From contig JAUSOD010000094.1 in the NCBI GenBank assembly GCA_030656215.1, positions 1-37,068 on the forward strand: DNA of 37,068 bases, in the 5' to 3' direction. The stretch is from Azoarcus sp. (GTDB lineage Bacteria > Pseudomonadota > Gammaproteobacteria > Burkholderiales > Rhodocyclaceae). Positions 2,331-37,068 of the stretch are shown piece after piece; within the stretch, counting starts at the first letter, position 1; each line of letters starts with the position of its first letter. The notes beneath the pieces are model-generated. The model made no database searches. It saw only the letters and a program-made list of their open reading frames with translations, and was not told the DNA's origin. The position numbers were made by a program, and so were the translations under genes.

Positions 2331-2765
2331 ATGAGAATAGAGAATCCGATGCTGGGCGCAATTGAAGTTTCCGATGACAAGGTGATCGAGTTTCCGGCCG
2401 GACTGCCGGGGTTCGAGAACTGCCATCGTTTCGTGCTGGTACATGAAGAAGGACGTGAGGCCACGGTATTCCAGCTGCAGAGCGCAGATGATCCCGACGT
2501 TGTTTTTTCGCTGACCGGACCGGAGCAATTCGGCATCTCCTACGAGTTCGCGCTGAGCGACGAGGAGGTCGACGCCCTGCAACTGGCTCGTCCGGAGGAT
2601 GCGCTGGTGGCGATCATCGTGCGCAAGGATGGCGACGACCCGGCCACGGCCGGCCTGCGTGCCAACTTCATGGCGCCGCTGGTGATCAACGTCGGTGCCC
2701 GGCGTGGGCTGCAGAAAGTCATCAACAAGCTCGGCTGCGACATCCTCCTGCGCGCTCAAGGCTGA
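2331..2765 (+). CDS. fliW: Flagellar assembly factor FliW
   Basis: 144 aa, normal length for FliW. The N-terminal segment with VIEFPAGLPGFE and the C-terminal NFMAPLVINVGARRGLQ are hallmark FliW sequences. In studied bacteria FliW binds flagellin and the translational regulator CsrA, releasing CsrA repression or flagellin as filament assembly proceeds. The ATG at 2331 is chosen because a GGAGGAGAAGAGG ribosome binding site sits just upstream; the frame is open further upstream but runs over the SPOR gene. No flagellin, csrA or other flagellar genes are nearby, so its partners must lie elsewhere. It follows the SPOR gene by 31 nt. Confidence 0.93.
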   Translation: MRIENPMLGAIEVSDDKVIEFPAGLPGFENCHRFVLVHEEGREATVFQLQSADDPDVVFSLTGPEQFGISYEFALSDEEVDALQLARPEDALVAIIVRKDGDDPATAGLRANFMAPLVINVGARRGLQKVINKLGCDILLRAQG

Positions 2766-2871
2766 GTTTCGGGTCGCGATCGCGTCGGGTGCTGATTGCC
2801 ACCCGGGAGCGGTCTCATCGGACGGCGCGGGTTAAAATCCGCTCCGTCTTCTTCATTTCAGGGATCTGCCA

Positions 2872-3252
2872 ATGACACGTAGTATCGTTTCCACCCCTAG
2901 TGCTCCGGCCGCCATCGGCACCTACTCGCAGGCGGTGAAAACCGGCAACACGGTCTATTGTTCCGGCCAGATCGGGCTCGACCCGGTGTCGATGCAGATG
3001 GTCGAAGGCTTCGAGGAACAGACCGTGCGTGTGTTCGAGAATCTCAAGGCCGTGGCCGAAGCCGCCGGCGGTTCGCTGGCCGACGCGGTGAAACTCACCA
3101 TCTACCTGACCGACCTGTCGAATTTCGCCAAGGTAAACGAAGTCATGTCGCGTTACTTTGCCGAGCCCTATCCTGCGCGTGCCGCGGTCGGGGTCAAGGA
3201 GTTGCCGCGGGGCGCGGTGGTCGAGGCCGATGCCATTCTCGTGCTTGGCTGA
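2872..3252 (+). CDS. ridA: RidA family reactive enamine/imine deaminase
   Basis: 126 aa, the usual length for the YjgF/YER057c/UK114 family. RidA hydrolyses 2-aminoacrylate and related enamine/imine intermediates released by PLP enzymes, giving 2-oxoacids and ammonia. Visible hallmarks are the N-terminal [12 protein letters not shown], the core [10 protein letters not shown], the segment [13 protein letters not shown] and the conserved substrate-carboxylate-binding arginine (R103) in PYPARAAV, followed by the acidic VEADAI. The start has an AGGGA ribosome binding site 8 nt upstream. recG starts 21 nt after its stop, so the two are probably cotranscribed. Deaminase activity is inferred from family membership. 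Confidence 0.92.
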
Positions 3253-3273
3253 CCGTTCGCCGGGCGCGCGAAG

Positions 3274-5352
3274 TTGAGCGAAGCGGGAGGGCTGCGCGCG
3301 CCTGTCCGGGGCTGGCCCGGGGTGGGTAGTCAGCTCGCGGGGCAACTGGCGAAGATCGATCTGCATCGTCAGGAGGATCTAGTCCTCCACCTGCCGCTTC
3401 GTTACGAGGACGAGACCCGGCTGACACCGATTGCCGTCGCCCGGCCCGGCTTTTCGGCGCAGGTCGAGGGCGAGGTGGTGTCTTGCGAGGTCACCCTACG
3501 CCCGCGGCGGCAGTTGCTTGCGCGGGTCAGCGATGCGTCGGGCACCCTGGTGGCACGCTGGCTCAATTTCTATCCTTCGCAGCAGAAGCAACTGGCCGTC
3601 GGCCGGCGCGTGCGTCTGTTCGGTGAAGTGCGCGGTGGCTTCTTCGGCGACGAGATGGTGCATCCGCGGCTGCATGCAGTGGAGCCCGGCGAAGGCTTGC
3701 CCGAGGCGCTCACGCCGGTCTACCCGACCACTGCCGGCGTTGGCCAGGCCACGCTGCGCAAGCTGATCGACCGGGCGCTGCAGTCGGTCGCAGTGGATGA
3801 TCCTCGGTCTGATCCAGTGCCGCCCGCGGTGTGCGCGCGTCTTGGCCTGCCCGGGTTCGCCGATGCGGTGTGCGCATTGCACCACCCCGCACCCGATGCC
3901 GATCCCGCATCCCTCGAAAACCGTGAGCACCCGGCCTGGCGGCGGATCAAGTTCGAGGAATTGCTGGTCCAGCAGTTGTCCCTGCGCCGCGCCTATAACG
4001 CCCGCAGGGCCAAGGGGGCGGCGAGCCTGCCGGCGCGCAGCACGCTGACCCGGGCGCTGCTTGAGCAACTGCCGTTCGGGCTCACCGGGGCGCAGCAGCG
4101 CGCGGTGGGCGAGATCGCTGCCGATCTCGCGGCGGCGCATCCGATGCAGCGCCTGCTCCAGGGCGATGTCGGCAGCGGCAAGACCATCGTCGCCGCGCTG
4201 GCCATGCTGCAGGCGGCCGAGAATGGTTTCCAGGCGGCCTTGATGGCGCCAACCGAGATCCTGGCCGAACAGCACTATCGCAAGCTCGCGGCCTGGCTGG
4301 CGCCGGTGGGGGTCGATATCGCCTGGTTGTCGGGCGGGCGCAAGAAGCGCGAGCGCGAGGCGGAGCTCGGGCGCCTGCAGCGGGGCGAGGTCTTGCTCGC
4401 GGTGGGAACCCATGCCCTGATCGAGGATCCGGTCGTGCTGCCGCGGCTGGCGCTGGCGGTGGTGGATGAGCAGCACCGCTTCGGGGTGCGCCAGCGTCTT
4501 GCGCTGCGCGAGAAGGGGCAGGAGGGCCGGCGGCCGCACATGCTGATGATGTCGGCCACGCCGATCCCGCGGACGCTGGCGATGACACATTACGCCGATC
4601 TCGATGTGTCGGTGCTCGACGAGCTGCCGCCCGGGCGTACGCCGATCCGTACCCGACTGGTGTCGGACGCGCGGCGCGAAGAGGTGATCGGCCGGGTGCG
4701 CGATGCCTGCCTCGCCGGTCGCCAGGCTTACTGGGTGTGTCCGCTGATCGAGGAGTCCGAGGCGCTGCAGCTGCAGACTGCGGTCGACACCTTCGAAACG
4801 CTCTCCGGGGCGCTGCCCGAGTTGCGTGTCGGACTCATCCATGGACGCCTCAAGCCGGACGAGAAGGCGGCTGCGATGGCGGCGTTCGTCGCTGGCGAGC
4901 TACAGGTGCTGGTCGCGACCACGGTGATCGAAGTCGGCGTGGACGTACCCAACGCCAGCCTGATGGTGATCGAGCATGCCGAGCGCTTCGGCCTGGCGCA
5001 GCTGCATCAGTTGCGCGGCCGGGTGGGGCGCGGCACCGCCGAGTCGGTGTGCATCCTGATCTACGCTCAGCCGCTGTCGGAGAATGGCAGAGCGCGGCTG
5101 AAGGTGATCTACGAGAACACCGACGGCTTCGTGATCGCGCGCGAAGATCTGCACATTCGCGGCCCGGGCGAGTTCGTCGGTGCGCGCCAGAGTGGCGTGC
5201 CGCTGTTGCGCTATGCCAGTCTGGAGAACGACGTGGATCTGATCGAGCCCGCGCGCGCGCTGGCCGAGACCCTGCTTGCCACCGATCCGGTGGCGGTCGA
5301 GCGCCTGATGGCACGCTGGATGGGCGGCCGTGAAGGCCTGTTGCGGGCCTGA
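3274..5352 (+). CDS. recG: ATP-dependent DNA helicase RecG
   Basis: 692 aa (E. coli 693). RecG remodels stalled replication forks and branch-migrates Holliday junctions. The N-terminal wedge/OB-fold region (about residues 1-260) contains LHLPLRYEDETRL. The helicase core has Walker A GDVGSGKT (297-304), MAPTEILAEQH, a DEQH box (398-401), MMSATPIPRTLAMTHYADLD, GLIHGRLKPDEK and the arginine-finger motif HQLRGRVGRG. A RecG C-terminal region with DLHIRGPGEF follows. The start is a TTG at 3274 with no strong ribosome binding site, but it aligns the protein to family length. ubiA follows after 9 nt. Confidence 0.97.
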   Translation: MSEAGGLRAPVRGWPGVGSQLAGQLAKIDLHRQEDLVLHLPLRYEDETRLTPIAVARPGFSAQVEGEVVSCEVTLRPRRQLLARVSDASGTLVARWLNFYPSQQKQLAVGRRVRLFGEVRGGFFGDEMVHPRLHAVEPGEGLPEALTPVYPTTAGVGQATLRKLIDRALQSVAVDDPRSDPVPPAVCARLGLPGFADAVCALHHPAPDADPASLENREHPAWRRIKFEELLVQQLSLRRAYNARRAKGAASLPARSTLTRALLEQLPFGLTGAQQRAVGEIAADLAAAHPMQRLLQGDVGSGKTIVAALAMLQAAENGFQAALMAPTEILAEQHYRKLAAWLAPVGVDIAWLSGGRKKREREAELGRLQRGEVLLAVGTHALIEDPVVLPRLALAVVDEQHRFGVRQRLALREKGQEGRRPHMLMMSATPIPRTLAMTHYADLDVSVLDELPPGRTPIRTRLVSDARREEVIGRVRDACLAGRQAYWVCPLIEESEALQLQTAVDTFETLSGALPELRVGLIHGRLKPDEKAAAMAAFVAGELQVLVATTVIEVGVDVPNASLMVIEHAERFGLAQLHQLRGRVGRGTAESVCILIYAQPLSENGRARLKVIYENTDGFVIAREDLHIRGPGEFVGARQSGVPLLRYASLENDVDLIEPARALAETLLATDPVAVERLMARWMGGREGLLRA

Positions 5353-34681: not shown

Positions 34682-36508
34682 ATGTGCGGAATCGTCACTG
34701 CAATCGCCACCAATAACGTTGTGCCCATGCTGCTCGAGGGCCTGCGCAAGCTCGAGTACCGGGGTTACGACTCTGCCGGAATCGCCGTCTTGGCGGGCGA
34801 GCTGACCCGCCTGCGCTCTGCCGGGCGGGTTGCCGAACTCGCCGCCCTGGCCGACGCGCGTCAGCTGTCGGCCAACATCGGTATTGCCCACACCCGTTGG
34901 GCCACCCATGGCGTGCCCGCCGAGCGCAACGCCCATCCCCACGTTTCGGCCGGGCTGGCGGTGGTGCATAACGGCATCATCGAGAATTTTGCGTCGCTCA
35001 AGCTCGCGCTGGAAGCGCGTGGCTACGTGTTTTCGTCCGAAACCGACACCGAGGCGATTGCGCATCTGATCCACCACAAGCTCGAATCCACGCCCGACCT
35101 GTTCGAGGCGGTCCGGCTCGCGACCAACGAATTGGTCGGCGCCTACGCCATCGGCGTGGTGTCCGAGGCCGACCCGTTCCGCATCATCGTCGCCCGCCGC
35201 GGTTCTCCGCTGCTGCTCGGGGTCGGTGAGGACGGCATGTATGCCGCATCCGACACTGCCGCGCTGCTGCAGGTCACGCGCAAAGTGGTCTATCTGGAAG
35301 ACGGCGATCTGGCCGAACTGCGCCGCGACAGCTTCCGGGTGATGCTGTCCGACGGCTCGCCGGTCGAACGTGAGATGCATATCTCCAGTCTGTCGGCGGA
35401 CGCGGTCGAGCTTGGCCAGTATCGCCACTACATGCAAAAGGAGATCTTCGAGCAGCCGCAGGCACTGGGCAATACGCTTGAGCTGATTGCCGGCGGCGGA
35501 TCGATCACGCCGCTGCACTTCGGTGCACGCGCGGCGGAGGTTTTCGACGGTGTGAAGCGGGTCCTGGTGCTGGCCTGCGGCACCAGCTTCCATTCTGGCC
35601 TGGTCGCGCGTTACTGGCTTGAAGCGCTGGCGAAGATCCCATGTACGGTCGAGATCGCCAGCGAGTATCGCTATCGTGAATCGGTGCCTGACAGCGAAAC
35701 CCTGGTGGTGGTCATTTCCCAATCGGGCGAAACCGCCGACACCCTGGCCGCGCTCAAGCACGCCAAAGCGCTCGGCATGGAGCGCACCCTGGCGATCTGC
35801 AACGTGCCCGAATCCGCCATCGTGCGCGAGGCGGCGCTGCGTTTCATTACCCGTGCCGGCCCCGAGATCGGGGTGGCGTCCACCAAGGCCTTCACCACCC
35901 AGCTCGCTGCGCTCGCGCTGCTGACCCTGTCGCTGGCAAAGATCAACGGTCGCCTGTCGGAGACCGAAGAAAACGGTCACCTTATCGCCTTGCGCCACCT
36001 GCCGGTTGCGGTGCAGAAGGTGCTCGAACTGGAGCCGGAGATCGAGCGCTGGGCACAGCGCTTTGCCACCAAGGAGCATGCGCTCTTCCTCGGTCGCGGT
36101 CGGCACTGGCCGATCGCCATGGAAGGTGCGCTCAAGCTCAAGGAGATCTCCTACATCCATGCCGAAGCCTACGCCGCGGGCGAACTCAAGCACGGACCGC
36201 TGGCGCTGGTTGACAAGGACATGCCGGTGATCGCGGTGTCGCCCGCTGACGAACTGCTGGAAAAACTCAAGTCCAATCTGCAGGAGGTCCGCGCCCGCGG
36301 CGGCGAACTCTACGTGTTCGCCGATGCCGGCAGCGAGATCCCGGAGTCGGAAGGGGTGCACATCCTGCACCTTCCCGAACACTACGGCATGCTGTCGCCC
36401 GTGCTGCATGTGATTCCGCTGCAATTGCTGTCATACCACGCAGCCCTGGTGAAAGGCACCGATGTCGATAAGCCGCGCAATCTGGCAAAAAGCGTTACCG
36501 TTGAGTGA
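34682..36508 (+). CDS. glmS: Glutamine-fructose-6-phosphate aminotransferase
   Basis: 608 aa (E. coli 609). It makes glucosamine-6-phosphate from fructose-6-phosphate and glutamine. The Ntn glutaminase domain starts with C2 (MCGIVTAI) and has the glutamine-binding HTRWATHG. Two sugar-isomerase (SIS) domains follow (about 285-420 and 455-595), with [10 protein letters not shown] and the phosphate-binding [12 protein letters not shown]. The C-terminus ends in the canonical [13 protein letters not shown]. The start at 34682 is fixed by the N-terminal cysteine. The 3' end of the gene is the classical TnsD recognition region of attTn7, and a Tn7-like end lies just after it. No glmS ribozyme-like leader is expected or seen. 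Confidence 0.98.
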
Positions 36509-36531
36509 GCAGGTCAGACGCGGTGTTTTGG
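36471..36531 (+). other. attTn7-like target: glmS 3' end and insertion point
   Basis: The last codons of glmS (about 36471-36506, encoding [11 protein letters not shown]) match the DNA that TnsD recognises in E. coli, including CTGGCAAAA and GTTGAG. The transposon-like TGT begins at 36532, leaving 23 bp after the stop codon. In E. coli Tn7 inserts about 25 bp past the glmS stop. If a 5-bp target duplication exists, its copy here would be TTTGG (36527-36531); the other junction is outside the window. Confidence 0.55.
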
Positions 36532-36541
36532 TGTTCCTTGC

Positions 36542-36597
36542 CAATAAAGTCGAAAACGTGGCAATAAAGTCGAAAACATGGCAATAAAGTCGAAAAC
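36542..36597 (+). repeat. Three 20-bp-period direct repeats (TnsB-site-like)
   Basis: The 16-bp core CAATAAAGTCGAAAAC is repeated without mismatch at 36542-36557, 36562-36577 and 36582-36597, with 4-bp spacers GTGG and ATGG. The period is exactly 20 bp. It is AT-rich compared with its surroundings. The Tn7 right-end repeat CAATAAAGTCTTAAAC differs at only two positions. The likely role is multiple transposase binding. Confidence 0.9.
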
Positions 36598-36612
36598 TCA
36601 CGGCGCGCAGCT

Positions 36613-36871
36613 GGACACCCAAATGACTTGAGGATGGCTTCGCTGGTTCGAGGCAACCTTCGGCGGCGCACGACGTTGGCCGAAGAACAGTGACTGGAGG
36701 CCGATCGTCCGCGTTTGGGCCTGACCTGTCGGTCGGGTTGCATCAGATGAGCGGCGGCAATGCGCCACAGACCTGCCGGCCAGCGCTCACGCTCAACCAA
36801 CGACCGGTCTCGCCATCCTCGAACTCACCCTTCCGACCCAATGCAGCCATCGAGCTTTGTGGAAAGCAGTC
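36613..36871. other. No supported gene between the repeats and the attC-like site
   Basis: All six frames were considered. Short open frames occur on both strands (the longest about 100 codons, minus strand, running into glmS), but their composition is Arg/Ser/Pro-rich, as expected of random GC-rich sequence, and none resembles TnsA or another transposition protein. I see no promoter, terminator or RNA gene here. Confidence 0.5.
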
Positions 36872-36943
36872 GCTCAACGCTCGCGGTGAGCGGCTGCGGC
36901 GAGCGAATGCGAGCCAGCGGTCCGCTCCACCGCGCAGTTGGGC
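36872..36943. other. attC-like integron recombination site
   Basis: 72 bp bounded by GCTCAAC (36872-36878, fits RYYYAAC) and GTTGGGC (36937-36943, fits GTTRRRY). Between them CGCGGT (36882-36887) pairs with ACCGCG (36929-36934), and GAGCGG (36888-36893) with CCGCTC (36922-36927). One unpaired base (C36928) separates the two right-hand arms, as in folded attC sites. The central 28 nt would form the variable loop. Both strands satisfy the box consensus, and the side and identity of the extra base do not settle the orientation. No integrase gene or second site is visible. A REP-like palindrome is the alternative. Confidence 0.42.
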
Positions 36944-37068
36944 GACTCCTGCAACAATGGCGCCGCCGTCACGCTACCCCTCGCGGCCGCTGACGGCGAA
37001 GGGCGTGAGGCCTCGCCAACGCTGCTCACGCGGGCTTGAGGAACACGCCCTGAACGTACGCGATCCGC

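Follow-up and report, generated by a model that had tools for sequence, protein, structure and literature searches.

A likely Tn7-like right end at attTn7 beside glmS in an Azoarcus sp. genome, and related ends across its order

The attTn7 site is a standard landing site for gene insertion into bacterial genomes. The closest described system is Tn7, an attTn7-inserting element encoding TnsABCDE; the available text of PMC2918618 gives its insertion distance from glmS and locates a TnsD site of 36 bp at that gene's 3' end. Dual tniQ-tnsD loci are described in the available part of PMC10293859, and Tn7-like elements with defence or integron cargo in PMC8649781, a survey which, in the part available, scans around tnsB.

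The window analysed here, a stretch of 37,068 nucleotides that forms the end of an Azoarcus sp. contig (C69 of genome G000; G, C and L labels are our own handles for genomes, contigs and loci), shares with Tn7 a TGT-N7-CAATAAAGTC terminus, a right-end site period of about 20 bp, and a right end that faces glmS about 20-25 bp after the stop codon. It differs from Tn7 in having three sites with GTCGAAAAC where Tn7 has GTCTTAAAC, and in the lack of tns genes in the readable 471 bp and of TnsA, TniQ and TnsD family matches in the assembly (PF08722, PF06527 and PF15978, the families searched genome-wide). The bases at 36532-36597 are very probably a Tn7-like right end at attTn7, belonging to an element that is likely non-autonomous or decayed and moved in trans. 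The right end itself is well supported because many relatives show a narrow glmS distance and a fixed orientation, most two-ended relatives have asymmetric left ends, one exact target duplication was found, and relatives carry TnsD or TnsA/B/C/TniQ/TnsD genes with the same or a near-identical motif.

The right end beside glmS

The features of the window are as follows.

34682..36508, forward strand: glmS, the host gene with attTn7 at its 3' end (reading frame; tblastn of relatives)
36473..36508, forward strand: terminal 36 bp of glmS, expected TnsD binding region (placed from the site length in the available text of PMC2918618)
36527..36531, forward strand: TTTGG, candidate 5-bp target duplication (near copy alone)
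36532..36597, forward strand: very probable Tn7-like right end of 66 bases, with a TGT terminus and three predicted TnsB sites in an array
36543..36557, forward strand: predicted TnsB site 1, AATAAAGTCGAAAAC
36563..36577, forward strand: predicted TnsB site 2
36583..36597, forward strand: predicted TnsB site 3
36598..37068, forward strand: readable interior of the element, 471 bp, without detected Tns homology (tblastn, 20 Tns queries)
36872..36943, forward strand: tentative attC-like (integron cassette) palindrome, GCTCAAC ... GTTGGGC (ad hoc attC scan)
36923..37068, no strand assigned: 146-bp stretch with 99% identity to the end of contig C70

The glmS frame comprises 608 codons and a stop, with the chosen ATG start at 34682 and the TGA at 36506-36508. 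The stop is separated by 23 nt (36509-36531) from the terminus, which reads TGT (36532-36534), TCCTTGC and then CAATAAAGTC from 36542. The sequence-only reading had claimed a TGT-N7-CAATAAAGTC terminus 23 bp past the glmS stop, followed by three exact copies of CAATAAAGTCGAAAAC at a 20-bp period, and the coordinates bear out both points (36508 and 36532 for the spacing; copies starting at 36542, 36562 and 36582). The window has two marks of a Tn7-like end, a TGT terminus with an array of predicted TnsB-type sites about 20 bp apart and an insertion about 20-25 bp downstream of glmS with the right end towards the gene. The 37-kb window has a single TGT-N7-CAATAAAGTC match and none of 100 dinucleotide shuffles has any, and the 16-mer CAATAAAGTCGAAAAC has three exact occurrences in the 5.08-Mb, 113-contig assembly, all of them here (reversed control pattern, 0). 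A second, far copy of TTTGG was not found; the contig stops at 37068.

The likeness to the Tn7 right end, which that reading had pointed out, holds on the G142 element, whose TnsB matches the solved Tn7 TnsB (7pik) over its whole length with 1604 bits and whose end beside tnsA reads TGTGGGCGGACAATAAAGTCTTAAAC.

In published Tn7 work (available parts of PMC2918618, PMC8649781 and PMC10293859) insertion proceeds from TnsD on glmS through TnsC to TnsAB at the end arrays, and by analogy the same route may have been followed at the window end. A TnsD-type protein would bind the 3' end of glmS and recruit TnsC, while TnsB would bind the AWTAAAGTCGAAAAC arrays of the two ends, the right end with three sites 20 bp apart and the left end with a second site about 68 bp in. 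The transposase would then insert the element, its right end towards glmS, at a distance of 23 bp from the stop. Movement could be driven in trans by a helper such as a G546-type TnsA/B/C-TniQ-TnsD element, and a cargo island would follow in the window genome.

Related ends in the family and order

Tandem site pairs with at most two mismatches were present in 12 of 121 family genomes, including that of the window. Eleven of the twelve places lie directly 3' of glmS; the twelfth, in G374, is on a 15.6-kb contig without any glmS. An order-wide scan of 399 genomes with a slightly wider tandem-pair pattern matched 10, or 9 when the genome of the window is excluded, and in these nine the pair was directly 3' of glmS six times and elsewhere three times (G330:C2, G201, G231). 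The sequence-only reading had named repeats at many loci unrelated to glmS and without Tns genes as evidence that would tell against it, and this is seen in small part, with 4 of the 21 tandem-pair places (G374, G330:C2, G201 and G231) having no adjacent glmS in the fetched DNA and no Tns gene being detected in most of the two-ended elements described below.

A looser test, requiring a pair of AWTAAAGT sites with similar tails and a spacing of about 20 or 40 bp, no more than 110 bp from the glmS stop, was positive in 9 of 77 usable glmS loci (80 fetched) and in 5 of 29 relatives, the latter a set ranked by DNA likeness to the window and so biased. The same test gave no match in control window-strands further downstream (0/986 and 0/340, 1326 together), on the reverse strand of the same stretches, or in shuffles (0/3850 and 0/1450, 5300 together). 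Among 23 loci chosen for possessing ends, the first site lies 33-41 nt after the glmS stop in 22, including L202, L203 and L301, whose Tns genes belong to other motif families; the exception, G344, has an extra site-like match ahead of its TGTTCC.

Ends of this general form are found in more than one lineage. The tnsA-bearing elements of G312 and G330:C3 have TGT and AATAAAGT repeats with a 20-bp period directly after glmS, and the tails that follow AATAAAGT differ by lineage (for example CGAAAAC, CGTAAAC, CTGTCGG, GTGACACC and TTCTTTCC). Lineage-specific tails at one place fit the expectation that several Tn7-like families home to one site. Within the genus, the motif is missing from two of four genomes (G003 carries another type, G004 none).

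Some loci have more than one end-like site. In L058 a single glmS is followed by end-like sites of two types, with CGTAAAC and CTGTCGG tails, and in G142 a further end-like site lies 266 bp from the Tn7 end (L142, 2110 and 2376), the Tn7 end itself being more than 1 kb from glmS. The doubled sites in L058 and G142 are perhaps the result of successive insertions. Away from glmS, inverted end-like sites about 630 bp apart were seen in L172 (G043:C1:4346376-4347003) and are possibly a miniature element; a tRNA-like appearance of these sites, noted by eye, received no support from ARAGORN. Plasmid searches with the tail and the end array returned matches to glmS regions, a single match of 50 bp in pTha01 and others at chance level, and an exact tandem-pair scan of viral contigs returned none.

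Eight two-ended relatives could be delimited, seven with one end at glmS.

G412: 3.6 kb, one end at glmS
G368: 6.6 kb, one end at glmS
G334: 5.6 kb, one end at glmS
G002: 7.6 kb, one end at glmS
G013: 1.9 kb, one end at glmS
G260: 9.3 kb, one end at glmS
G370: 11.9 kb, one end at glmS
G330:C2: 10.2 kb, no glmS adjoining in the fetched DNA

At the right ends, sites lie at 0 and 20 bp, often at 40 bp too. Left ends have a wider layout, with sites at 0/69/123 in G334 and at 0/68 in G260, G330:C2, G368 and G370. The G412 left end (0/54) is near the spaced layout, unlike the five of eight whose second site lies at about 68 bp, while the second copy in G002 (0/20) and the single site in G013 do not match a left-end layout. 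In G368 and in G412 the inner site is weak, with four mismatches to the motif. Read by eye, G260 has an exact 5-bp target duplication (CTTAT/CTTAT), the 5-bp flanks of G412 and G370 agree at four of five positions, and no target duplication was found in the other five elements (G368, G334, G002, G013 and G330:C2).

These data bear on whether the repeats might be a host feature of the glmS 3' region, such as a terminator decoration or a regulatory repeat. A terminator-like hairpin follows the repeats in several relatives (by eye), and in G002 the second copy and its hairpin sit after another gene, as a host feature might. We consider this very improbable, given that the site pair is absent from 68 of 77 glmS loci, that inverted left-end partners have a different spacing, that one element has an exact target duplication, and that TnsD is encoded inside the G370 and G229 elements.

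Transposition genes and the remainder of the element

The motif family is tied to Tn7-like machinery through G546, G370, G229 and G412:C47. The left end on contig G546:C24 carries the motif of the window (CGAAAAC tail; sites at 0/68/123) and is made up of AWTAAAGTCGAAAAC sites, and the contig encodes TnsA, TnsB, TnsC, TniQ and TnsD, the last with the family mark PF15978 (3e-48). This contig stops about 300 bp past the tnsD start and the right end lies beyond it; no element combining this exact motif at glmS with a full Tns set was seen end to end. In G370, bounded by a near variant of the motif, tnsD (PF15978, 2.7e-58) starts 316 bp in from the glmS-side right end; the window differs in having no tnsD there. 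G229 has a TnsD fragment (PF15978, 1.9e-27) just inside its right end, and an end in G412:C47 (0/67/120) lies beside a partial TniQ frame. In contrast to G546, the G337 contig with a full Tns set yielded no such end motif. G546 and G337 both combine TnsA/B/C with TniQ as well as TnsD, and so belong with the dual tniQ-tnsD loci of PMC10293859.

Twenty Tns queries from G142 (Tn7), G312, G546, G337 and G370 (tblastn, E 1e-3) found nothing in seven of the eight two-ended elements, and in the eighth, G370, no Tns match besides TnsD. In the genome of the window the same queries found none in the parts searched of C25 (first 14 kb), C70 (last 7 kb) and C75 (first 19.5 kb). The TniQ profile (PF06527) matched 0 of 14 control genomes yet 15 of 26 genomes of a later set, indicating that the TniQ search does work. 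Some of the TniQ loci, for example G260:C2, look by their gene order like Tn5053-type tni operons and not Tn7-type ones.

The readable interior of the window element has no tns genes of an autonomous element, most of the element being beyond the contig end, and Rfam found nothing in the tail. The 146-bp sequence common to the ends of C69 and C70 is the likely cause of the contig break. On C70 (L136, 6871-7016 and 6204-6795) a gene for a BrnT-type toxin, overlapped by an HTH/MqsA-like antitoxin frame, lies upstream of the 146 bp.

Two candidates for the left end were rejected. At C25:2350 there are two inner-type sites 54 bp apart with the terminal site absent, and the conserved flank of C25 lies more than 1 Mb from glmS in G001, G002, G003 and G030 and on another contig in G004 and G013; at C75:12715 there is a single site with two mismatches and no TGT. 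The C25 site pair (L204, 2350-2404) lies beside a penicillin-binding-type transpeptidase-domain protein (2755-3555) that is class D beta-lactamase-like by eye, in a stretch unmatched in six relatives.

The sequence-only reading had proposed that a Tn7-like element, possibly with a cargo island, begins here, and had suggested looking for Tns genes and an inverted end. The right end at attTn7 stood. An element with a cargo island is putative in the window genome: the readable DNA stops about 470 bp in, no left end was found beside the genes that adjoin glmS in relatives, and the assembly is negative for TnsA, TniQ and TnsD. The genes that follow glmS in G003 and G004 lie on C75 in this genome, and no inverted end was found next to them in the first 19.5 kb of that contig.

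The same absences would be expected if the window held a solo right end, the scar left after loss of most of a Tn7-like element, which is a sub-case of the decayed state. Six relatives (G001, G011, G333, G337, G344 and G398) likewise have a right end at glmS and no inverted site with at most two mismatches in the roughly 11-29 kb scanned downstream. However, with its three perfect sites and intact TGT the end looks fairly young or maintained, and the attC-like DNA just inside it resembles that of the two-ended G334 element; we consider a solo end possible but less likely than not. The window element is probably a stripped-down passenger without its own transposition genes, non-autonomous or decayed, since it shows no tnsD at the position occupied in G370 and the assembly has no match to the three Tns families.

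An end of an IS21-type (istA/istB) element was also considered. IS21 ends can bear several short terminal repeats, and the G334 island holds istA and istB. These genes are inside the G334 element, with GGGTCAGTT repeats on the istB side (by eye, one side only), so that the sole istA/istB pair appears to have other termini; an IS21 element with the repeats of the window at its other end, which the sequence-only reading had named as evidence against itself, was not encountered. No istA/istB pair with AWTAAAGTCGAAAAC-type ends as its own termini was found, no other IstB match was present among the subset of island ORFs scanned, the IstB matches of the window's own genome are on C106, C35, C44 and C82 and none is on C69, and the repeats track glmS. 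An IS21 origin is accordingly extremely improbable.

Cargo and islands without tns genes

The palindrome at 36872-36943 is the only match of the ad hoc attC scan in the window; its fold has a z of -2.5, and 2 of 200 shuffles fold as well. It can be aligned with a G334 site, with two of the three copies found within the G398 island and with one on the Thauera plasmid pTha01, with a common GTTRRRY box. The attC label is tentative because the aligned G334 and G398 sites fail the same scan, which found none in 12 other loci, including L199 and L200, attC-like by alignment. Such attC-like sites were seen in L199 (1178-1242), L200 and L326 (about 2500-2600), with a common leader CGACCC..GCAGCC..GAGCTTT..GAAAGC. 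The distance from the right-end terminus inward to the site is about 340 bp in the window and about 270 bp in G334; further copies are in the G398 island, and one is on plasmid pTha01.

Some related passengers in other bacteria appear, from their sequence matches, to carry anti-phage defence genes. G260 cargo has BilA, BilC and BilD matches (L235, 16132-18889 and 10552-15731), G002 has a PDC-S06 candidate, and G387 has a PDC-S05 candidate 1.2 kb inside its right end, its left end not being seen. Three large proteins of the G546 element partially match mad6, mad7 and mad8, with other PADLOC families scoring higher for two of the three. PADLOC gave no match for the other proteins tried (two from G260 and one each from G002, G412 and G334). 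The G260 element, with Bil, an exact duplication and no detected tns gene, also has two identical transposase genes arranged as an inverted pair.

The Bil and MADS-like matches and the attC-like sites in the cargo of some relatives resemble the Tn7-like elements with defence and integron cargo in the available part of PMC8649781; in contrast to those, the putative elements without tns genes would fall outside its tnsB-anchored scan. The right end is of an already known kind, and the set of islands without tns genes is possibly the new point; a literature search, with subscription journals mostly outside it, found no paper on natural Tn7-like elements lacking tns genes. We regard as evenly balanced the proposal that Betaproteobacteria of this order host attTn7 islands without tns genes, defined by nothing but their shared asymmetric ends, with machinery supplied in trans, and defence genes and cassettes as cargo, to which surveys anchored on tnsB would be blind.

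Natural Tn7-like ends at attTn7 could matter for gene insertion at that site, through target immunity. Should elements that lack tns genes prove common, counts of mobile defence islands at glmS would be too low, and the fixed end architecture would offer a way to find elements that have no transposase gene at all.
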